Shown here: positions 22,944 through 48,254 of the stretch, piece by piece
Position numbering within the stretch: position 1 is the stretch's first letter
Layout: every line of letters begins with the position of its first letter
Assembly: GCF_011059105.1 (NCBI RefSeq)
Contig: NZ_JAALLS010000008.1
Span: forward strand, 1-64,000
DNA length: 64,000 nt
Reading direction: 5' to 3'
Origin: Fodinibius halophilus
GTDB lineage: Bacteria > Bacteroidota > Rhodothermia > Balneolales > Balneolaceae
Notes under the pieces: generated by a model
The model's database searches: none
What the model saw: the letters and a program-made list of their open reading frames with translations, nothing else
What the model was told of the DNA's origin: nothing
Translations under genes and position numbers: made by a program

Positions 22944-23019
22944 CTACCAATCGCCCTGCCATTTACGATGAAATTTTTCCTTGCCTTTTATCTAAGAAGA
23001 CGAGAGTTTATACCATTCA

Positions 23020-23124
23020 ATGAAAGCAAACGGAACACATATCACTTTTTCTAGCGACAGTCCATCTGTTGCAGCCATTTCTACGTTCCGCTTTCACGTA
23101 CGGCCACGGCCCGTTCGGGTCTAA
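23020..23124 (+). CDS. Candidate arginine leader peptide, 34 aa
   Basis: ATG at 23020 to TAA at 23122-23124 gives 34 residues ending FRFHVRPRPVRV: four Arg codons (CGC at 23089, CGG at 23101, 23107 and 23116) within the last 11. It precedes the arginine operon by 128 bases. A GC-rich hairpin (23108-23121) overlaps the last Arg codons. Downstream, GGAGG (23141-23145) can pair either with CTCC (23132-23135) or with CCTCC (23163-23167), giving mutually exclusive structures. This is the layout of ribosome-mediated attenuation. The start has only a weak ribosome-binding site and I see no classical terminator T-run, so the mechanism is inferred. Confidence 0.5.
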   Translation: MKANGTHITFSSDSPSVAAISTFRFHVRPRPVRV

Positions 23125-23131
23125 ATAAACT

Positions 23132-23167
23132 CTCCTTTTTGGAGGGGACATGGTATTGTACTCCTCC
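23132..23167 (+). promoter_or_regulatory. Possible alternative hairpins after the leader peptide
   Basis: CTCC-TTTTT-GGAG (23132-23144) and GGAGG...CCTCC (23141-23167) share the same GGAGG and exclude each other. A T5 run at 23185-23189 follows at a distance. This could be an attenuator, but no energy calculation was possible. Confidence 0.35.
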
Positions 23168-23251
23168 ATTCGACAACCCAACTCTTTTTCAAATCACCCA
23201 TTAATTATTAGCGAATAATTTTTTCGTTGATAGAAATAACATCGCCGTACG

Positions 23252-23929
23252 ATGGATATTACAATCACTGTAGCCGATACCCAGCATCTGAGCTATGCCG
23301 AAGAAATCTGTGCCCTGATGGAAGAAGCCGCCAAGCAGCGTGGCACCGGAATTGCCAAAAGAGCTCCGGAGTATATTCAGGCCAAGATTGAGGAAGGCAA
23401 AGCCGTTATTGCTGTCGACCAAGACAACGGGCAGCTCGCCGGTTTTTGCTACATCGAAAGCTGGGACCATGACAACTACATAGCCAACTCAGGGCTTATT
23501 GTCCACCCACATTACCGAAAGATGGGGCTGGGAAGAAAAATCAAGAACAAGATCTTTGAACTCTCAAGAGAAAAATATCCCGAAGCCAAAATTTTTGGTA
23601 TCACCACCAGTATGGCCGTCATGAAAATTAATTCAGATATGGGCTACAAGCCCGTCACTTTTGAGGAATTAACCCAAGACAAGGAGTTCTGGAAAGGATG
23701 CCAAAGCTGCCCCAACTACGATATTCTAACCAGTAAAGAGCGAAAAGGCTGTCTTTGCACGGGGATGTTATATGATCCTGAAAAAGAGGAATCTCAATCT
23801 TCGCAAGATGAAGATTCACAAAAAGCTAAGCGGTGGGAATCATTCAAACGTTTCCTGCGGCTACACAAATATAACATCCAGCGCAAAACAAAATCCCTTT
23901 TCACTTTTAATACTGATTGCAATGAATAA
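23252..23929 (+). CDS. GNAT acyltransferase, candidate N-acylglutamate synthase
   Basis: A 225 aa GNAT protein with acetyl-CoA binding at GLIVHPHYRKMGLGRKIKNK (about residues 81-100) and a Cys-rich tail CQSCPNYDILTSKERKGCLC. Because it heads the arginine operon and no ArgA or ArgJ is present in it, the most likely job is making N-acylglutamate, the first intermediate. This type of GNAT at the head of Bacteroidota arg operons is a known pattern, but activity is inferred here. Its 3' end overlaps argG by 8 bases. Alternative: an unrelated acetyltransferase. Confidence 0.7.
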   Translation: MDITITVADTQHLSYAEEICALMEEAAKQRGTGIAKRAPEYIQAKIEEGKAVIAVDQDNGQLAGFCYIESWDHDNYIANSGLIVHPHYRKMGLGRKIKNKIFELSREKYPEAKIFGITTSMAVMKINSDMGYKPVTFEELTQDKEFWKGCQSCPNYDILTSKERKGCLCTGMLYDPEKEESQSSQDEDSQKAKRWESFKRFLRLHKYNIQRKTKSLFTFNTDCNE

Positions 23930-25118
23930 TAGTAACAAAATTGTCCTTGCCTTTAGCGGCGGACTCGATACCTCGTACTGTGTTCCGTACCTCAAACAAA
24001 CCTATGGCGCAGAAATTCACACTGTTCTGGTTAATACCGGAGGTTTCTCGAAAGAAGAACTCACCGAAACCGAAAAACACGCTTATAACCTGGGGGCGGA
24101 TACACATAACACCCTGGAACAAACTGAGAAGTTTTACCAAAAAATCATCAAATATCTCATTTTCGGGAATATCTTGAAAAATGATACCTATCCCCTTTCA
24201 GTGAGTTCTGAGCGTGTGTTCCAGGCGGTAGCTATTGCTAACTACGCCAAACAGATCGGGGCCGATGCCATTGCCCATGGAAGTACAGGAGCCGGCAATG
24301 ACCAAGTTCGATTCGATCTGGTGTTTAATGTCATTGCCCCGGAATTGGAGATTATCACGCCCATACGTGATCAGAAACTAAGCAGGGAACAAGAAGTGGA
24401 ATTCCTACAGCAACAGGGCTACGATTTTGAGTGGGCCGAGGCAAAGTACTCTATCAACAAAGGTTTGTGGGGCACCAGCGTAGGCGGTGCCGAAACGCTG
24501 ACCTCCGACAAGCCCCTGCCCGAAGAAGCCTGGCCGAGCCAGCTTAAAAAAACGGACCAACAAACCATCACCCTTGAATTTGAAAAGGGCGAGCCTGTAG
24601 CACTCGACGGCAAAAAACTACCCCCCGTTGAACTTATTCAGCAACTCAACGAACTGGCCTCCGACTATGCCGTAGGTCGAGATGTCCACGTAGGCGATAC
24701 TATTATTGGTATCAAAGGTCGAGTGGGATTTGAAGCTGCGGCACCGATGATTCTCATCAAGGCACACAAACAGCTCGAGAAACACGTACTTACCAAGTGG
24801 CAGCTCTACTGGAAAAAACAGCTGGCCGAGTGGTATGGCATGATGCTACACGAGGGCCAGTACCTGGATCCCGTAATGCGAAATATCGAGCAGTTTCTGG
24901 CAGATACGCAAAGTAATGTTACCGGTTCCGTAACGGTCAACCTTGCCCCCTACCAGTTTACAATTGAGGGAATTACCTCAGACAACGACCTAATGGACGC
25001 CAAGTTTGGGGATTACGGGGAGATGAACAAGAGTTGGAGTGGCGAAGACGTCAAAGGGTTTGCAAAAATTCTATCTAACCAGATTAACATCCACAAATCG
25101 GTGAACAGTCATGATTAA
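23922..25118 (+). CDS. argG: Argininosuccinate synthase
   Basis: ATP-dependent ligation of citrulline and aspartate. The ATP pyrophosphatase motif AFSGGLDTSYC is at residues 9-19 from the ATG at 23922, and the GSTGAGNDQVRF motif lies near 118. 398 aa is the family length. The in-frame extension back to 23772 would be in the GNAT gene and has no family similarity, so it is rejected. Overlaps the GNAT stop by 8 bases and argC by 8. Confidence 0.95.
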   Translation: MNNSNKIVLAFSGGLDTSYCVPYLKQTYGAEIHTVLVNTGGFSKEELTETEKHAYNLGADTHNTLEQTEKFYQKIIKYLIFGNILKNDTYPLSVSSERVFQAVAIANYAKQIGADAIAHGSTGAGNDQVRFDLVFNVIAPELEIITPIRDQKLSREQEVEFLQQQGYDFEWAEAKYSINKGLWGTSVGGAETLTSDKPLPEEAWPSQLKKTDQQTITLEFEKGEPVALDGKKLPPVELIQQLNELASDYAVGRDVHVGDTIIGIKGRVGFEAAAPMILIKAHKQLEKHVLTKWQLYWKKQLAEWYGMMLHEGQYLDPVMRNIEQFLADTQSNVTGSVTVNLAPYQFTIEGITSDNDLMDAKFGDYGEMNKSWSGEDVKGFAKILSNQINIHKSVNSHD

Positions 25119-26088
25119 TGCAGGCATTGTAGGCGGTTCGGGCTACACGGGCGGTGAGCTTATTCGATTGCTTTTGAATCATCCGAAAGTAACTATAGAT
25201 TTCGTCTTTAGTACCAGTAAAGCGGGTGAAGCAGTAACCGCTGTTCATAAGGATCTAATTGGAGAAACAACGCTTGCATTTTCTTCCAAGATAAATCCAT
25301 CGGTTGATGTCCTTTTTTTGTGCACCGGCCATGGAAACTCCACCAAAGTCCTCGAACAGCACACGATATCGGAGCAGACTAAAATCATCGATCTGAGTCG
25401 TGATTTCAGGCTTTCGAATCAAAATACTTTTGAACAACGCAGCTTTACTTATGGATTGCCTGAATTACAGAAGGCCAAAATCACCCAGAGCAAAAACATC
25501 GCCAATCCCGGCTGCTTTGCCACGGCTATACAGTTGGCTCTGCTTCCACTAGCTCAAGAATCAGCTCTCAACGATGATGTACACATTCACGGGATTACCG
25601 GGGCCACAGGAGCGGGCAGCTCATTGAGCGATACCACCCATTTTAGCTGGCGAGACAACAACATTTCCATATATAAGGGACTTAATCACCAGCATATCGA
25701 TGAAATTCAGCAGAGCATAACCCAACTGTCGCCCTCGTATAAGGGCAAACTCAATTTTATTCCTGTCAGAGGAAACTTCAGCAGGGGAATTTTCATCTCC
25801 GCTTATACCAACTATGCACCCTCTCTGGAGGAGACCCAAGCCCTGTATCGTGAATTCTATAAAGAGTCCCCTTTTGTATACCTAAGCCAGGAATCGATCT
25901 ACCTGAAGCAGGTCGTTAATACCAATAAGTGTCTGCTACACCTGAAAAAGGAAGATGGGCAACTGCTCATTACGGCAGCCATTGATAACCTGCTGAAAGG
26001 AGCCTCAGGACAAGCCCTGCAAAATATGAACCTCATGTTTGACTTTGATGAAGAAACCGGACTTCACCTTAAACCCACACATTTTTAA
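25111..26088 (+). CDS. argC: N-acyl-gamma-glutamyl-phosphate reductase
   Basis: NADPH-dependent reduction of N-acylglutamyl phosphate to the semialdehyde. The N-terminal dinucleotide motif GIVGGSGYTGGEL is at residues 4-16, and the catalytic Cys is in NPGCFAT near residue 133. 325 aa is typical. It overlaps argG by 8 bases and is one base from argD. Whether the acyl group is acetyl or succinyl is not visible in the sequence. Confidence 0.95.
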   Translation: MINAGIVGGSGYTGGELIRLLLNHPKVTIDFVFSTSKAGEAVTAVHKDLIGETTLAFSSKINPSVDVLFLCTGHGNSTKVLEQHTISEQTKIIDLSRDFRLSNQNTFEQRSFTYGLPELQKAKITQSKNIANPGCFATAIQLALLPLAQESALNDDVHIHGITGATGAGSSLSDTTHFSWRDNNISIYKGLNHQHIDEIQQSITQLSPSYKGKLNFIPVRGNFSRGIFISAYTNYAPSLEETQALYREFYKESPFVYLSQESIYLKQVVNTNKCLLHLKKEDGQLLITAAIDNLLKGASGQALQNMNLMFDFDEETGLHLKPTHF

Positions 26089-26089
26089 G

Positions 26090-27232
26090 ATGAATATTTT
26101 TGACGTATATCCCCTACTCGATCTTGAACCAGTTAAAGCCGAAGGCAACTATATCTTCTGCAGTAACGGGAAGAAGTACCTGGATTTCTATGGCGGTCAT
26201 GCAGTGATCTCCATCGGTCACAGTAACCCGCACTATATTTCCAAGATTAGCGAACAGCTGAACAACATCGGCTTTTATTCTAACTCGGTACAAAATCCCC
26301 TGCAGGCCGAACTAGCACAGAAACTGGGAGCACTCTCCGGTTATGAAGATTACCAACTATTTCTCTGTAACTCGGGAGCCGAAGCCATAGAAAACGCCCT
26401 TAAGATGGCGTCTTTCCACACCGGCAAATCAAAAGTCATTGCTTTTAACAAGGCCTTCCACGGACGCACCACTTCGGCACTAAGTGTCACCGACAATGAT
26501 AAATATACCGCACCGATTAATGAGAGCAATAATGCAATCTTCCTGGAGATAAATGACCTGGAAGCCTTTAAACAGGAGATCTCCAAAGGTGATACATGCG
26601 CTGTACTACTTGAAGGCATTCAAGGTATTGGTGGTATTCGCCTTTTTGAGGATTCCTTTCTTCAAGAAGTAGAATCGCTCTGTGAAAAACATAATGTGGT
26701 ATTTATATGTGACGAAATACAATCCGGCTACGGACGAACCGGAGCCTTTTTTGCTCACCAACACGCCGGCATCACCCCTGATATTATCACCGTAGCTAAA
26801 GGTATGGGCAACGGCTTCCCGGTAGCGGGCACCATATTGAGTCCCAATTTTGAAGCCGTTCACGGGCAACTGGGATCTACCTTCGGCGGCAACCAACTGG
26901 CCTGTGCCGCAGCCACTGCGGTACTGGAAATTATTGAAGAGGAACAGCTTATTGATAATGCAGCTATCCACGGCAATGCCCTCTTTAAAAAACTAAACAC
27001 CCTGCCCAGAATTATGGAAGTACGCGGCAAGGGCTTGATGATCGGGCTGGAATTCCCATTTCCCATAAAAGAGTTGCGACAGCAGCTGATTAACCAAGAA
27101 CAGGTTGTGACCGGCGTAGCCTCCAACCCAAATGTGCTACGGCTATTGCCGCCACTGACTATTACCAAAGCCGAAATCGATCATCTTTTCACTGCACTAC
27201 AAAACGTCTTAACACAGCACGTATACCAATGA
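26090..27232 (+). CDS. argD: N-acylornithine aminotransferase
   Basis: PLP class III aminotransferase (380 aa) making N-acylornithine from the semialdehyde. PLP Lys lies in ITVAKGMGNGFPVAG near residue 235 and the substrate loop GGNQLACAAA follows. The ATG at 26090 is one base after the argC stop; a frame opening at 26039 lies inside argC and is rejected. The 3' end overlaps argF' by 4 bases. Confidence 0.93.
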   Translation: MNIFDVYPLLDLEPVKAEGNYIFCSNGKKYLDFYGGHAVISIGHSNPHYISKISEQLNNIGFYSNSVQNPLQAELAQKLGALSGYEDYQLFLCNSGAEAIENALKMASFHTGKSKVIAFNKAFHGRTTSALSVTDNDKYTAPINESNNAIFLEINDLEAFKQEISKGDTCAVLLEGIQGIGGIRLFEDSFLQEVESLCEKHNVVFICDEIQSGYGRTGAFFAHQHAGITPDIITVAKGMGNGFPVAGTILSPNFEAVHGQLGSTFGGNQLACAAATAVLEIIEEEQLIDNAAIHGNALFKKLNTLPRIMEVRGKGLMIGLEFPFPIKELRQQLINQEQVVTGVASNPNVLRLLPPLTITKAEIDHLFTALQNVLTQHVYQ

Positions 27233-28164
27233 CCAATTTTACATCCATACACGATACTGATAATCCACAAGCACTTGTACAGCAAGTACTTGAACTGAAA
27301 CAAAATAGCTCCCCTTCCACTCTCGGAATGGGTAAAACCCTGGGACTCATCTTCTTTAATCCCAGCTTGCGAACCCGCCTGAGTACTCAAAAAGCCGCTA
27401 CTAACCTCGGCATGAATGTGATCGTCATGAATATTAACGGCGATGCCTGGAATATCGAGTTTGAAGATGGGACCGTGATGAATGGTTCTACCCAGGAACA
27501 TATCAAAGATGCTGTGCAAGTCATTAGTGGCTACTGCGACGTGATGGGCGTCAGAACCTTTGCCAAGCTCGAGGATCCTCAAGAAGATTACCAGGAAAAG
27601 GTTTTGAACAACTTCATAAAGCATTCCTCGGTACCGCTTGTCAGCCTGGAATCAGCCACCTTGCATCCCCTGCAATCACTAACCGACCTGGCCACTATCA
27701 CCGAAACCGGAAATAGCACACCCAAAGTAGTGTTAAGCTGGGCTCCTCATCCCAAAAAATTGCCGCAGGCCGTGGCGAACTCATTTTTACAATGGATAAC
27801 TGCAACCGATGCCCAAACTACGGTTGTGCATCCCAAGGGATATGAACTCAGCGATGAGTTTACAGATGGAGTTGAAGTCAGTCATGATCAGGAAACCGCG
27901 CTAAAAGACGCCGATTTCGTCTATACCAAGAACTGGTGCAGCTATGCCCAATACGGGCAGACGCCCCCGGTGGAGAAAGACTGGACAATCAACCAACAGA
28001 AAATGAAACTGACCAATAACGGCAAGTTTATGCACTGCCTGCCAATTCGAAGAAATGTGGTAGCAACTGATGAAGTAATTGATAACTCATTAGTGTACGA
28101 ACAGGCTAAAAATCGCGAGTATGCCGCCCAGGCCGTACTTCAAAATATATTGGAGGAACTATAA
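27229..28164 (+). CDS. argF': N-acylornithine carbamoyltransferase (AOTCase/SOTCase type)
   Basis: Transfers carbamoyl to an N-acylornithine instead of free ornithine, as in Xanthomonas (acetyl) and Bacteroides (succinyl). It has the carbamoyl-phosphate motif FFNPSLRTR and the C-terminal HCLPIRRN of the acyl-ornithine branch. The residue that, as I recall, distinguishes acetyl (Glu92 in Xanthomonas) from succinyl (Pro90 in Bacteroides fragilis) falls in the loop GSTQEHIK here and is Gln89, so the natural acyl group cannot be told. 311 aa; overlaps argD by 4 bases and argB by 1. Confidence 0.9.
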   Translation: MTNFTSIHDTDNPQALVQQVLELKQNSSPSTLGMGKTLGLIFFNPSLRTRLSTQKAATNLGMNVIVMNINGDAWNIEFEDGTVMNGSTQEHIKDAVQVISGYCDVMGVRTFAKLEDPQEDYQEKVLNNFIKHSSVPLVSLESATLHPLQSLTDLATITETGNSTPKVVLSWAPHPKKLPQAVANSFLQWITATDAQTTVVHPKGYELSDEFTDGVEVSHDQETALKDADFVYTKNWCSYAQYGQTPPVEKDWTINQQKMKLTNNGKFMHCLPIRRNVVATDEVIDNSLVYEQAKNREYAAQAVLQNILEEL

Positions 28165-28940
28165 TGCAGAAATTACAGATTATTAAAATTGGCGGAAAGA
28201 TCGTCAATGACGGACAAAAATTAGATAGGTTTATAGATCACTTTACCCAGCTTGACCATCCCAAAATACTGGTTCATGGTGGCGGAAACTCGGCTTCCAG
28301 GCTTTGCAAAAATCTGGATATCCCTATCCAAATGAATAACGGGCGTCGTATTACCGATACACTCACTCTGGATGTAGCTGTAATGGTATATGCGGGCCTC
28401 ATCAATAAAACCATTGTAGCTAAACTACAGGAGCACCCATGCAACGCATTGGGACTTTCGGGTGCGGACCTAAATATCATCCCTGCCACCAAGAGAAGTG
28501 GCACTGAGATAGATTATGGATTTGTGGGTGATATTCAAGCGGATGAGATCAATACCTACTTTATAAAGCGACTTTTGGATGAGCAGATTATCCCGGTTTT
28601 CTCGGCGATCACCCATGATGAACAAGGGCAACTGCTCAACACCAATGCTGATACCATAGCTTCTGTGCTGGCAGTGGCTCTTGCCAAAAATTACGAGATA
28701 ACCCTGACCTACTGTTTTGAAAAAGTTGGCGTTTTGCACGATGAAGAAGATGAGGGTTCACTCATAAAGCATATGACAATGGATTATTTTTCAGAGTTGA
28801 AAGATGATGGCACCATCCACGATGGAATGATCCCAAAACTGGATACCGCTTTTGAGGCTCTTAAACGAGATATCGACAAGGTATACATCAAACATGCTCA
28901 AAATCTGACGACCAAAATAGGAACGGAGCTGGCACTATGA
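28164..28940 (+). CDS. argB: N-acylglutamate kinase
   Basis: Amino-acid kinase fold, 258 aa. It has IIKIGGKIVND at the N-terminus and VHGGGNSASRLC near residue 37 for substrate binding. It phosphorylates N-acetyl- or N-succinylglutamate with ATP. It is shorter than the 290-300 aa arginine-sensitive ArgB group and lacks an obvious N-terminal kinked helix, so it is probably arginine-insensitive; that would place control on expression. Overlaps argE by 4 bases. Confidence 0.93.
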   Translation: MQKLQIIKIGGKIVNDGQKLDRFIDHFTQLDHPKILVHGGGNSASRLCKNLDIPIQMNNGRRITDTLTLDVAVMVYAGLINKTIVAKLQEHPCNALGLSGADLNIIPATKRSGTEIDYGFVGDIQADEINTYFIKRLLDEQIIPVFSAITHDEQGQLLNTNADTIASVLAVALAKNYEITLTYCFEKVGVLHDEEDEGSLIKHMTMDYFSELKDDGTIHDGMIPKLDTAFEALKRDIDKVYIKHAQNLTTKIGTELAL

Positions 28941-29995
28941 CTCAACTGCTAACTGAAGCCACAGATTTATTAAAACAACTGATTGCAACCCGGTCAGTTT
29001 CAGGCGATGAGGGAGCTACCGCCGACCTAATCCAACAGTATTTGGAGGCAAAAGGTGTTCCCGTCAAGCGACAGCTGAATAACGTTTGGGCAATGAACAC
29101 AGCTTTTGAACCCGACCGCCCCACCCTGTTGCTGAATTCACATCATGATACCGTGAAACCCAACTCCGACTACAGCCGTGATCCTTTTCAGCCGACCGTT
29201 GAGGACGGCAAGGTCTTTGGCCTGGGATCTAATGATGCTGGTGGAGCGTTGGTCTCACTTATTTCCACATTCCTCTATTTTTACGAGCAGCAAAACCTGA
29301 ACTATAACTTAGTATTGGCCGCCACCGCCGAAGAGGAAATTTCCGGGGATAAAGGCATTAGTGCTATCTGGGATCAATTGCCTGAAATTGATAGTGCCAT
29401 CGTCGGTGAACCTACGCAAATGCGCATGGCTGTAGCTGAAAAGGGGCTGATGGTGCTGGATTGTACTGCCAACGGGAAAAGTGGCCATGCCGCCCGTGGT
29501 GAAGGCAATAACGCCATCTACACCGCTATGGATGATATCGCGTGGATTAAAAACCACCAGTTTGAGAAAATCTCTAACTTCCTGGGGCCTATAAAGATGA
29601 CGACAACCATCATTAAAAGTGGGAGCAAACATAATGTGGTCCCCAACAGCTGCCTATTTACTGTGGATGTGCGTACTACCGATGCCCACAGTAATGAAGA
29701 AACACTGGATATTATTAAGCAGCATCTTAAGTCGGAGGTCACACCACGATCTACAAGACTCAATCCTTCATCCATTCCGCCGGATCATCCACTCGTACAA
29801 GCCGGGCAAAAGCTGGGGATTACGACCTTTGGGTCGCCCACCCTTTCTGACCAGGCGCTGATGCCGGTACCGTCCCTAAAGATGGGGCCGGGGAAGTCAG
29901 CTCGTTCTCATACGGACAATGAGTTTATCTGTCTGTCGGAGATTGAGGAGGGTATAAATGGATACATTACACTATTGAAACAGGTAGTCCATTGA
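28937..29995 (+). CDS. argE: N-acylornithine/citrulline deacylase, M20 peptidase
   Basis: M20 family dinuclear zinc hydrolase (352 aa). Metal ligands appear in HHDTVKP, SNDAGGA and AATAEEEISG, plus VGEPT. Because the operon contains an acyl-ornithine carbamoyltransferase, the natural substrate is probably N-acylcitrulline rather than acylornithine. It is the last gene of the overlapping block and is followed by a 166-base gap that carries a dispersed repeat before argH. Confidence 0.9.
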   Translation: MTQLLTEATDLLKQLIATRSVSGDEGATADLIQQYLEAKGVPVKRQLNNVWAMNTAFEPDRPTLLLNSHHDTVKPNSDYSRDPFQPTVEDGKVFGLGSNDAGGALVSLISTFLYFYEQQNLNYNLVLAATAEEEISGDKGISAIWDQLPEIDSAIVGEPTQMRMAVAEKGLMVLDCTANGKSGHAARGEGNNAIYTAMDDIAWIKNHQFEKISNFLGPIKMTTTIIKSGSKHNVVPNSCLFTVDVRTTDAHSNEETLDIIKQHLKSEVTPRSTRLNPSSIPPDHPLVQAGQKLGITTFGSPTLSDQALMPVPSLKMGPGKSARSHTDNEFICLSEIEEGINGYITLLKQVVH

Positions 29996-30067
29996 AAAAT
30001 GGCGATAAAGAACTATAGCTTTTATCAAATAATCAGCAACTATTAAACGGCTACAGTAAAAACAAAG

Positions 30068-30100
30068 ATTTCTCTCCGCCAAAAGGCGGATCGAAATGAC
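30068..30100. repeat. Intergenic repeat with hairpin between argE and argH
   Basis: TCCGCC-AAAA-GGCGGA (30075-30090) is followed by TCGAAATGAC. The latter end motif recurs near 55008-55018 and, as GAGATGAC or GGATGAC, at 51822 and 33327. Confidence 0.55.
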
Positions 30101-30161
30101 AACCGAAGTTAATAAATAACTAATAACCAATACACCATTAACAATTAACTAAGAACAAATC

Positions 30162-31451
30162 ATGAAGCTCTGGGATAAAGGACAACAATCGACAAGCGAT
30201 ATCATTGATCAGTTTACCGTGGGTGAAGACCGGGTGTTGGATCTGCAAATAGCAGCATATGACCTGCAAGCTTCCAAAGCGCATGCCCAGATGTTAACCA
30301 GCATCGATATACTTTCGGAAGAACAGTTGGAAGCGCTCACTCACGAACTGGATCAACTCTTGGAACAGGTTAACGACGGCAGTTTCATTATCGAAGAAGA
30401 TTTTGAGGATGTGCATTCCAAGATCGAATATGAGCTCACTGAAGCACTCGGCGACATTGGCAAGAAGATCCATACAGGACGTTCACGAAACGACCAGGTG
30501 TTGGTCTGCTTGCATATGTATGTGAAGGAGCAGATCCAGGAGATCAAAAGCTTAATCAAAGGGCTATTTGAGCAGCTCATCGATCTGAGTGAAGAGCATA
30601 AAGAGGTGTTGATTCCCGGCTATACGCACATGCAGGTAGCTATGCCCTCTTCTTTTGGCTTGTGGTTTGGAGCCTATGCCGAATCGCTGGCAGATGACCT
30701 GCAACTATTGAATGCAGCCTACCAAATTGCGGATCAAAATCCTTTGGGATCAGCGGCCGGCTATGGAAGCTCTCTTCCCCTGGATCGCGAAATGACCACT
30801 AAATTATTGGGATTTAGCACACTAAGATACAATTCTGTGGCGGCCCAGATGAGTCGTGGCAGACTTGAGAAACAAACAGCATTTGCGCTCAGTACCGTGG
30901 CAGGAACTCTTTCCAAGATGGCGATGGATATATGTCTGTATTGTAGTCAAAATTATGAGTTTTTATCTTTTCCCGATGAGTTGACTACCGGCTCCAGCAT
31001 TATGCCCCATAAAAAGAACCCGGATGTGTTCGAACTAATTCGTGCCAAATGTAATGATATCCAATCGTTGCCCAATCAGTTAACACTGGTAACCAATAAC
31101 CTGCCCAGCGGCTACCACAGGGATTATCAACTTCTAAAAGAAAAGCTCTTCCCCGCTGTAGAAACGCTTAAATCGTGCCTGGAAATGAGTCACTTTATGT
31201 TTCAGTACGTACATATTAAAACAGATGTTATTGATGACGACAGGTACAATTATATCTTCAGTGTGGAGTCTGTGAATGAAAAAGTAGAGGCAGGCGTGCC
31301 TTTTAGAAAGGCATACCAAGAGATAGGACAAAACATTGCCGAAGGGACATTTTCTCCTGTAAAGGAGGTGAATCATTCCCATGAAGGTAGTATTGGCAAT
31401 CTTTGTAATGAAGAGATCAAGATTAAATTTGAACAAGCATTTAACTCATAA
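30162..31451 (+). CDS. argH: Argininosuccinate lyase
   Basis: Fumarase superfamily enzyme releasing arginine and fumarate. The signature GSSIMPHKKNPD is at about residues 277-288 and the N-terminal region has HTGRSRNDQV, both typical. 429 aa is slightly shorter than average (450-460) through a trimmed C-terminus. It lies 166 bases after argE and 11 bases before proC, and may have its own promoter or be read through. Confidence 0.94.
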   Translation: MKLWDKGQQSTSDIIDQFTVGEDRVLDLQIAAYDLQASKAHAQMLTSIDILSEEQLEALTHELDQLLEQVNDGSFIIEEDFEDVHSKIEYELTEALGDIGKKIHTGRSRNDQVLVCLHMYVKEQIQEIKSLIKGLFEQLIDLSEEHKEVLIPGYTHMQVAMPSSFGLWFGAYAESLADDLQLLNAAYQIADQNPLGSAAGYGSSLPLDREMTTKLLGFSTLRYNSVAAQMSRGRLEKQTAFALSTVAGTLSKMAMDICLYCSQNYEFLSFPDELTTGSSIMPHKKNPDVFELIRAKCNDIQSLPNQLTLVTNNLPSGYHRDYQLLKEKLFPAVETLKSCLEMSHFMFQYVHIKTDVIDDDRYNYIFSVESVNEKVEAGVPFRKAYQEIGQNIAEGTFSPVKEVNHSHEGSIGNLCNEEIKIKFEQAFNS

Positions 31452-31462
31452 AATCCATTACT

Positions 31463-32263
31463 ATGAAAACAGAAGTCGCTATTCTAGGAGGCGGAAATCT
31501 TGGAGCATGCCTGGCACAGGGATTTAAACAATCTTCTGAAGCAATTGATAAATACCATATTACTGTTACCCGAAGGAATGTAGAATTGATCAACCACCTG
31601 GAGGGTGAAAACATTGATGTTTCTGCTGATAATATTGCAGCTGTAGAAGGTGCTGACATCGTTATTTTTGCTGTTCAGCCTACTCAAATAAAACCCTTGG
31701 TAGAGGAGATAAAGCCGGTATTGGATCCTGAAAGACATATCCTCGCTTCTACTATGGCGGGGGTCAGTAGTGATGACATTGCGGAACTTACCGGTACGGA
31801 GTTTGCAATTCTTCGCATTATGCCCAATACCGCGGCAGCTGTTAACCGGGCAATGACCTGCGTAGAACAGACCCAAAACAAAAAAGCAGAGGCTGAAATT
31901 ATTGAACTATTCGAAACGATTGGACGAACACTGGTTCTCCAATCTGAGCTGATGGAAGCAACCACCGTACTGGGAGCTTGTGGCATCGCCTTCTTTTTGC
32001 GATACATCCGTGCAGCATCGCAAGGTGGGATTGAAGTGGGATTCCATGCTGAAGAAGCACAACTTATTGCAGCCCAAACAGCATTAGGAGCCTCTGCCCT
32101 GCTGTTGGATTCCAACAATCACCCGGAGCATGAAATTGACAAGGTAACCACGCCCAAAGGCTGTACCATTGCCGGACTTAATGAGATGGAACATAACGGA
32201 CTCAGCTCTGCCCTGATTAAAGGTATCAAGACCTCTTTTGAGAAGATTGAGGACATTGGATGA
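31463..32263 (+). CDS. proC: Pyrroline-5-carboxylate reductase
   Basis: Last step of proline synthesis, NADPH-dependent. Rossmann N-terminus AILGGGNLGACLAQGF, central MPNTAAAVNRAMT, and the C-terminal conserved DKVTTPKGCTIAGLNEME. 266 aa is normal. It is 11 bases after argH, so proline and arginine synthesis from glutamate are linked here. Confidence 0.94.
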   Translation: MKTEVAILGGGNLGACLAQGFKQSSEAIDKYHITVTRRNVELINHLEGENIDVSADNIAAVEGADIVIFAVQPTQIKPLVEEIKPVLDPERHILASTMAGVSSDDIAELTGTEFAILRIMPNTAAAVNRAMTCVEQTQNKKAEAEIIELFETIGRTLVLQSELMEATTVLGACGIAFFLRYIRAASQGGIEVGFHAEEAQLIAAQTALGASALLLDSNNHPEHEIDKVTTPKGCTIAGLNEMEHNGLSSALIKGIKTSFEKIEDIG

Positions 32264-47764: not shown

Positions 47765-47929
47765 TACCTTTTCGGCCTTCCTTTCTTCCACTGCCTGTCA
47801 CTAATATCCCTTCCCCAAAGCCCACTCACAGCTGGCCAAGCGGCATGTTAGCCCTTATTGTTGAAAACTCCGCCTTTTTGTGGAAAAGTATTCGTTGACA
47901 ATGAACGTGCCAGGCGTTTTCTTAAAAAT

Positions 47930-48102
47930 AGATTTAAAGGTGTCCCGACAACTGTCGGGGTGAAAAGGGAATCCGGTGAAAAACCGGAACTGTTCCCGCA
48001 ACTGTGATCCGAAATATTCTTTGTTTTTTAAGCCACTGTCTCAGCCCCAAAAAAGACGGGAAGGTGCGAAGAAATAATCGGTAAGTCAGGAGACCTGCCT
48101 TT
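47930..48102 (+). promoter_or_regulatory. Cobalamin riboswitch
   Basis: The typical aptamer elements occur in order: GGTGAAAAGGGAATCCGGTG, AAACCGGAACTGTTCCCGCA, ACTGTGATCCG, AGCCACTG, GGGAAGG, and the terminal GTAAGTCAGGAGACCTGCC at about 48082-48100. Downstream GGCAGGT (48147-48153) could pair with ACCTGCC (48093-48099), a possible expression platform. It precedes the B12-independent metE and would repress it when B12 is present. Confidence 0.95.
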
Positions 48103-48254
48103 AGGTCAAGTAAACGAGGCCTTCGGGAGTTAAGGTGTTGTTGAAAGGCAGGTGCCGTATACCCGATTTACTGTATATCAGCATTCCTTTTTCATTCCTG
48201 CCTTTGCAACGTTTTAGCCTCCTACCTCATAATTCAAAGCTAAAACAGATCATT

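Follow-up and report, generated by a model that had tools for sequence, protein, structure and literature searches.

The window (the whole 64,000-nucleotide stretch of DNA that was analysed) is attributed by its named relatives to Fodinibius/Aliifodinibius, family Balneolaceae. It encodes an arginine operon in the order GNAT-argGCDFBEH-proC, downstream of a short open reading frame (ORF) carrying arginine codons. The genes downstream of this leader thus make the very amino acid whose codons the leader carries, and the operon start GNAT-argG-argC is the same across Bacteroidota. A cobalamin riboswitch is also present in the window, at 47921-48116 (124 bits). The features of the arginine locus are the following:

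22980..23011, forward strand: candidate Bacteroidota-type promoter (-33 box CTTG, -7 box GAGTTTAT), weak, with 6 of 10 positions matched, and stronger in relatives; its placement would put the transcription start at the leader ATG or near it
23020..23124, forward strand: arginine leader ORF, 34 codons plus TAA, kept in 9/9 Fodinibius arg operons
23089-23091 (CGC) and 23101-23103, 23107-23109 and 23116-23118 (all CGG), forward strand: leader Arg codons
23252..23929, forward strand: GNAT acetyltransferase, first gene of the operon, with a probable N-acetylglutamate synthase role
23919..32263, forward strand: argG, argC, argD, an argF-like (ornithine-type) carbamoyltransferase, argB, an argE-like M20 peptidase, argH and proC

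The leader ORF starts with an ATG at 23020, ends with a TAA at 23122-23124 and encodes the peptide MKANGTHITFSSDSPSVAAISTFRFHVRPRPVRV, in which arginine occupies codons 24, 28, 30 and 33, i.e. four of the last 11; 127 bases separate its stop codon from the GNAT start at 23252. An earlier reading of the letters alone (the sequence-only reading) had described this 34-codon frame with four Arg codons among its last 11, and the same frame was recovered here. In the window alone it is mildly unusual, since an equally Arg-rich frame occurs in 1.6% of dinucleotide shuffles of the upstream 300 bases. The evidence beyond chance for the predicted leader frame comes from relatives, not from the window alone.

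Indeed, the operon is present in 9 of 12 Fodinibius genomes and is preceded by the leader in all nine; argG is also missing from the three genomes that lack the operon. The leaders end in FRFHVRPRPVRV, FRFRVRPRPVRV, FRFRVRRRALRAQQ, FRISVRRRPFRA and FRFAVRPRALRAQQ and, in a second Fodinibius clade, in PIRRRPRALPGS, PIRRRPRALSGS and PIRRPRPRALLGS. A covariance model of the region gave one strong match per genome in the nine Fodinibius, always at the arg operon, and found no second copy of the element in these genomes; in other genera it gave four weak matches (E 0.01-0.08), only one of which (genome G034) lies at the arg operon. Within Balneolaceae, an Arg-rich leader frame precedes 38 of the 40 GNAT-led operons with enough upstream sequence, and in 37 of the 40 this is a short ATG frame carrying four or more Arg among its final 14 codons, versus 0.95% of shuffles; these counts are not independent, the genomes being related, but at least nine genera are represented. 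In the sister genera most leaders are some 21 codons long, with RIPRRR or a variant of it at the C-terminal end (e.g. MQKSLAHRIDRRSVRRIPRRR). Other Balneolaceae genera (L132-L150), without a GNAT-led operon, have an argininosuccinate synthase of another kind, which shares about 30% identity with the one encoded in the window.

The pattern extends to the phylum Bacteroidota, which supplies nearly all of 75 further loci: a short upstream frame with at least 4 Arg in its last 10 codons, GTG and TTG starts being admitted, was found at 47 of the 75, versus 1.5% of shuffles. Tandem Arg-rich frames occur in 23 of 36 Flavobacteriaceae, including Polaribacter, Tenacibaculum, Winogradskyella and Psychroserpens. 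Tandem leaders lie upstream of GNAT at L053, L057, L064, L065, L073, L080, L098, L099 and L115; the stop codon of the second leader follows RRFFPRP or RRRP and lies inside a CCCGUAAGGG hairpin. About 40-80 bases before GNAT, Flavobacteriaceae (e.g. L064, L065, L098 and L099) also have a conserved hairpin GAAC-UUAGGUGAGUCCG-GUUC, whose stem changes while its loop is nearly constant.

The codons used for arginine differ between groups. CGG makes up 141 of the 223 Arg codons of Balneolaceae leaders, versus 23 of 155 in 13 ordinary genes of the window; the Bacteroidota leaders use CGC, CGT and CGA, with CGG at only 2 of 263. The leader peptide drifts outside the Arg positions. Arginine is thus kept while its codons and the rest of the peptide vary, a pattern expected if the codons, and not the peptide, matter.

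The DNA-binding repressor ArgR controls arg genes in many other bacteria. It was missing (PF01316 search) from all 92 Balneolaceae and from all 31 other operon-bearing genomes, i.e. from 123 genomes, some of them incomplete drafts; the same search was positive in 9 control genomes, a Bacteroides among them. In the genome of the window, hisG is preceded by a His-rich leader, MLKEQLHIHSHLHHGGSYRR (L164, G000:C13), and trpE by a Trp-rich leader, MKKSAHKNINWWWLVKQHTRAVAFL (L168, G000:C1), and most other Fodinibius genomes examined keep the form of both. Since these two leaders occur in the same genome, cognate leader peptides are, as predicted here, a general device of this organism; no branched-chain leader was found before ilvD in Fodinibius. 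A textbook intrinsic terminator, AACCCACTGCAGGAAACTGGAGTGGGTTTTTTT, closes the trp leader, which also contains GGCAGTGG, able to pair with the CCACTGC of the terminator; both were read from the sequence, by which this leader is a classical trp attenuator in Balneolota.

In the relatives, a promoter pair TTTG / TAnnTTTG, with 18-21 bases between the two boxes, ends 2-10 (mostly 4-6) bases before the leader ATG, and at least 8 of its 10 positions are matched in half of the leaders versus 5.5% of shuffles. According to a transcriptome study of a flavobacterium (PMC9723704), the -7 box occupies positions -12 to -5 there; with the pair placed as above, most relatives would start transcription on the leader AUG or no more than about 2 bases from it.

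The RNA of the leader and of the segment just behind it can adopt the following structures:

23021..23096, forward strand: helix Pa, in which the leader start (GAAAGC, GGAAC) pairs with GUUCCGCUUUC just before the Arg codons
23054..23072, forward strand: hairpin GCGACAG-UCCAU-CUGUUGC inside the ORF, with CGACAG and CUGUUG cores invariant in nine Fodinibius
23108..23121, forward strand: hairpin GGCCC-GUUC-GGGUC over the last Arg codons, ending just 5' of the stop codon, in 9/9 Fodinibius (-7.9 to -11.2 kcal/mol)
23130..23146, forward strand: hairpin ALT, CUCUCC-UUUUU-GGAGGG, which all nine Fodinibius can form (-4.1 to -9.9 kcal/mol)
23140..23168, forward strand: hairpin P3, the rival GGAGG pairing, which all nine Fodinibius can form (-9.5 to -16.9 kcal/mol)
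23206..23232, forward strand: hairpin P4 before the GNAT start, with no U run after it

The GC-rich hairpin over the Arg codons and the two exclusive GGAGG pairings proposed in the sequence-only reading are all present in the window, the latter two at -9.4 (ALT) and -15.8 kcal/mol (P3). The GGAGG strand is common to ALT and P3 in 9/9 Fodinibius, which makes the two pairings mutually exclusive. The fold of 23018-23260 is unusually stable (z -4.9); that of 23080-23200, the segment singled out earlier for minimum-energy folding, is unremarkable on its own (z -0.8). A Pa-like helix is found in 9/9 Fodinibius, several being individually weak (shuffle p 0 to 0.6). Compensatory changes, which that reading had named as a check, are seen in P3, with GGAGAG:CUCUCC in L008 and GCGGA:UCCGC in L007 and L009. 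In no genome is ALT as strong as P3, and in L003, L007 and L009 it is very weak; in most Fodinibius its 5' arm lies 3 to 13 bases past the stop codon, i.e. within the footprint of a terminating ribosome. That the position of the ribosome would decide between the folds comes from modelling.

The ALT/P3 pair was not identified in the sister genera, where another element, the long-range helix P1, is conserved instead, in which leader codons 7-10 pair with a site lying 43-63 bases past the stop codon. The arms of P1 covary (AGAAUUG:CAAUUCU, AGGAUC:GAUCCU, AGUAUUG:CAAUACU and AACAUUG:CAAUGUU), one position shows all four Watson-Crick pairs, and 86 of 96 positions are paired, a value reached in none of 10000 permutations and somewhat favoured because the 3' arm was picked for best pairing. 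When the partner was chosen freely, the mean was 7.39 of 8 for the genome's own downstream region versus 6.66 for that of another genus. The predicted switch thus differs between clades.

Between the arg leader and GNAT, no hairpin with an adjoining U run was found in the window or in the relatives inspected, and the his leader likewise has no intrinsic terminator. P3 and P4 were considered as intrinsic terminators and rejected, as no U run directly follows either, and the transcript end at a terminator near 23190 implied by the sequence-only reading has no counterpart in the leader of the window or of its relatives. With no intrinsic terminator in place, the output has to be Rho-dependent or translational, or take some other form. 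The elements relevant to these outputs are the following:

23169..23251, forward strand: C-rich, G-poor RNA reaching from P3 to the GNAT start, a candidate site for Rho loading
23097..23104, forward strand: 5' half of a putative start lock, CGUACGGC, within the Val27-Arg28 codons
23244..23251, forward strand: 3' half of the putative start lock, GCCGUACG, directly before the GNAT ATG, in only 5 of 9 Fodinibius

The arg and his leaders share a hairpin soon after the stop codon, followed by C-rich, G-poor RNA. Indeed, the post-leader RNA of Fodinibius contains 26% C and 11% G at arg and 26% C and 5% G at his, versus 13% C and 23% G at trp, and downstream of all Balneolaceae arg leaders C reaches 29% and G 9%, versus 19% and 15% in 257 control upstream regions (not species-matched). 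A C-rich, G-poor composition is typical of Rho-loading sites. Rho is encoded in the genome. Two proteins with a Rho RNA-binding domain (open frames of about 490 and 425 amino acids) were found per genome in 10/10 genomes searched, those of the window's own genome being located at G000:C45:178511-178729 and G000:C23:189879-190091. The composition of the post-leader RNA suggests Rho-dependent termination, although a bias of C over G can have other causes. Among the outputs, Rho-dependent termination is accordingly ranked first, as a tentative choice that falls a little short of an even chance; translational control comes second and the rest is left open.

Taken together, (i) the crowding of Arg codons by the stop codon across Balneolaceae and Bacteroidota, (ii) the lack of ArgR in these genomes and (iii) the conserved pairings around the codons argue for a ribosome-mediated arginine attenuator before the arg operon, which we regard as very probable; that the leader senses arginine shortage via a ribosome on its Arg codons is held with still greater confidence. 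The mechanism proposed in the sequence-only reading is therefore supported in part, namely for the Arg-codon leader, sensing by the ribosome and exclusive folds (given the 9/9 Fodinibius, the Balneolaceae and Bacteroidota leaders, the lack of ArgR and the His and Trp leaders), whereas its classical ending is not supported. The transcript would begin at the leader AUG or near it, and the leader would be translated by a ribosome following just behind RNA polymerase. With ample Arg-tRNA, the ribosome would reach the stop codon and cover the 5' arm of ALT, so that P3 forms; the C-rich, G-poor RNA beyond it would then be open to Rho, and transcription would end ahead of GNAT or soon after entering it. 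When Arg-tRNA runs short, above all the one for CGG, the ribosome would park on the Arg codons, ALT would replace P3 and the operon would be read. In the clade to which the window belongs, a ribosome held there would, in addition, disrupt the pairing between the Arg codons and the GNAT start.

This last pairing could by itself provide the output. The same sensor would then act on translation: CGUACGGC (23097-23104) would pair with GCCGUACG (23244-23251) and close the GNAT start until a stalled ribosome frees it. The pairing belongs to the minimum-energy fold, both halves are kept in 5/5 clade-1 Fodinibius, in which the RNA flanking the 3' half is variable, and its 5' half would be covered by a ribosome on Arg24-Arg30 but not by one on the stop codon. 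However, the halves are invariant and thus show no covariation, the lock is missing from the four other Fodinibius and from all sister genera, the duplex scores exceed those of shuffles just mildly (p 0.03 to 0.1), and the computed opening of the GNAT start in the window is no higher on stalling, because the start then forms a small hairpin of its own. A translational output is therefore considered rather unlikely, and a general start-codon lock was rejected, the pairing being present in only five Fodinibius and modelled stalling opening no start in the window.

A classical attenuator ending in an intrinsic terminator, of the kind found in the his and trp operons of E. coli, would account for the leader ORF, the cognate codons and the exclusive hairpins, and is the scheme that the trp leader of the same genome follows by sequence; the lack of any GC-rich hairpin with a U run from the leader to GNAT, in the window and in the relatives inspected, makes it improbable for arginine. 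It is slightly more improbable that, as with the fungal arginine attenuator peptide, the nascent chain responds to free arginine within the ribosome, in place of codons sensing Arg-tRNA. Arg-rich C-terminal ends do adjoin the stop codon, e.g. RIPRRR-stop in the sister genera, but the peptides vary outside arginine, their ends (RPVRV, RPFRA, RALRAQQ, RALPGS, IPRRR, RRRP and FFPRP) are ill-suited to such a role, and the His and Trp leaders obey the codon rule. Direct binding of arginine by the RNA, as a riboswitch with an incidental ORF, would fit a structured, conserved RNA with nearly invariant stretches in Fodinibius; it is very improbable, as the leader RNA matched none of the Rfam 15 covariance models and the RNA architecture varies between genera while the Arg-coding end is kept. 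A chance reading frame without function, compatible with the p of 0.016 for the window alone, is refuted by the conservation in 37/40 and 47/75 loci, where about 1% was expected.

The proposed arginine attenuator can be compared with several known systems. Like the classical leader attenuators (enterobacterial his, trp, leu, ilv, thr and phe), it has a short ORF rich in codons for the end product ahead of the biosynthetic operon and, downstream of this ORF, hairpins that would exclude one another; unlike them, it has no intrinsic terminator and its Arg codons adjoin the stop codon. In tnaC-type attenuation, a leader ribosome decides whether Rho ends transcription, as is proposed here; free tryptophan makes TnaC stall at its stop codon, and in the arginine leader the expected stalling is on the Arg codons, from a lack of Arg-tRNA. 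ArgR also provides arginine-responsive control of arg operons, but as a DNA-binding protein that is absent here. Arginine T-boxes do so by direct binding of tRNA (PMC1262725). In Staphylococcus aureus, the Arg-codon leader peptide rbfL also senses arginine shortage, but it controls a biofilm regulator, uses the rare codons AGA/AGG, and its stalling blocks the next ribosome-binding site, so that shortage lowers expression (PMC13009471). The speF leader of Salmonella is an RNA leader with an arginine-responsive short ORF too, which controls ornithine decarboxylase (polyamines) and not arginine biosynthesis (PMC6386406).

Leader-peptide systems were known only in Proteobacteria and Actinobacteria at the time of a 2010 survey (PMC2965389), and a survey of Actinobacteria found no arginine leader peptide (PMC1262725). 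A 2021 transcriptome of Flavobacterium psychrophilum gave clues for leader-peptide attenuation at amino-acid operons (PMC9723704); it concerns the same phylum-level group and the same idea, and its main text does not name arginine in this context and gives neither mechanism nor conservation, which agrees with the caution of the sequence-only reading that an arginine attenuator is not commonly described in this phylum. In the open-access papers searched, no arginine biosynthetic operon was reported to be preceded by an arginine leader peptide.

To our knowledge, arginine is not among the amino acids known for leader attenuation of their own biosynthetic operon. If the proposed attenuator is confirmed, arginine would join the amino acids sensed by a leader peptide before their own biosynthetic operon, and arginine control without ArgR would be explained in a large part of two phyla. 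As a more speculative extension, an Arg leader without intrinsic terminator, transcribed from the leader AUG, could be the usual means of controlling arginine in Balneolota that lack ArgR and in many Bacteroidota, with tandem leaders gating one operon in Flavobacteriaceae. The arg and his leaders without terminator, set against the trp leader with terminator in one genome, would offer a direct way to study the action of leader peptides in bacteria that lack Shine-Dalgarno-led initiation.
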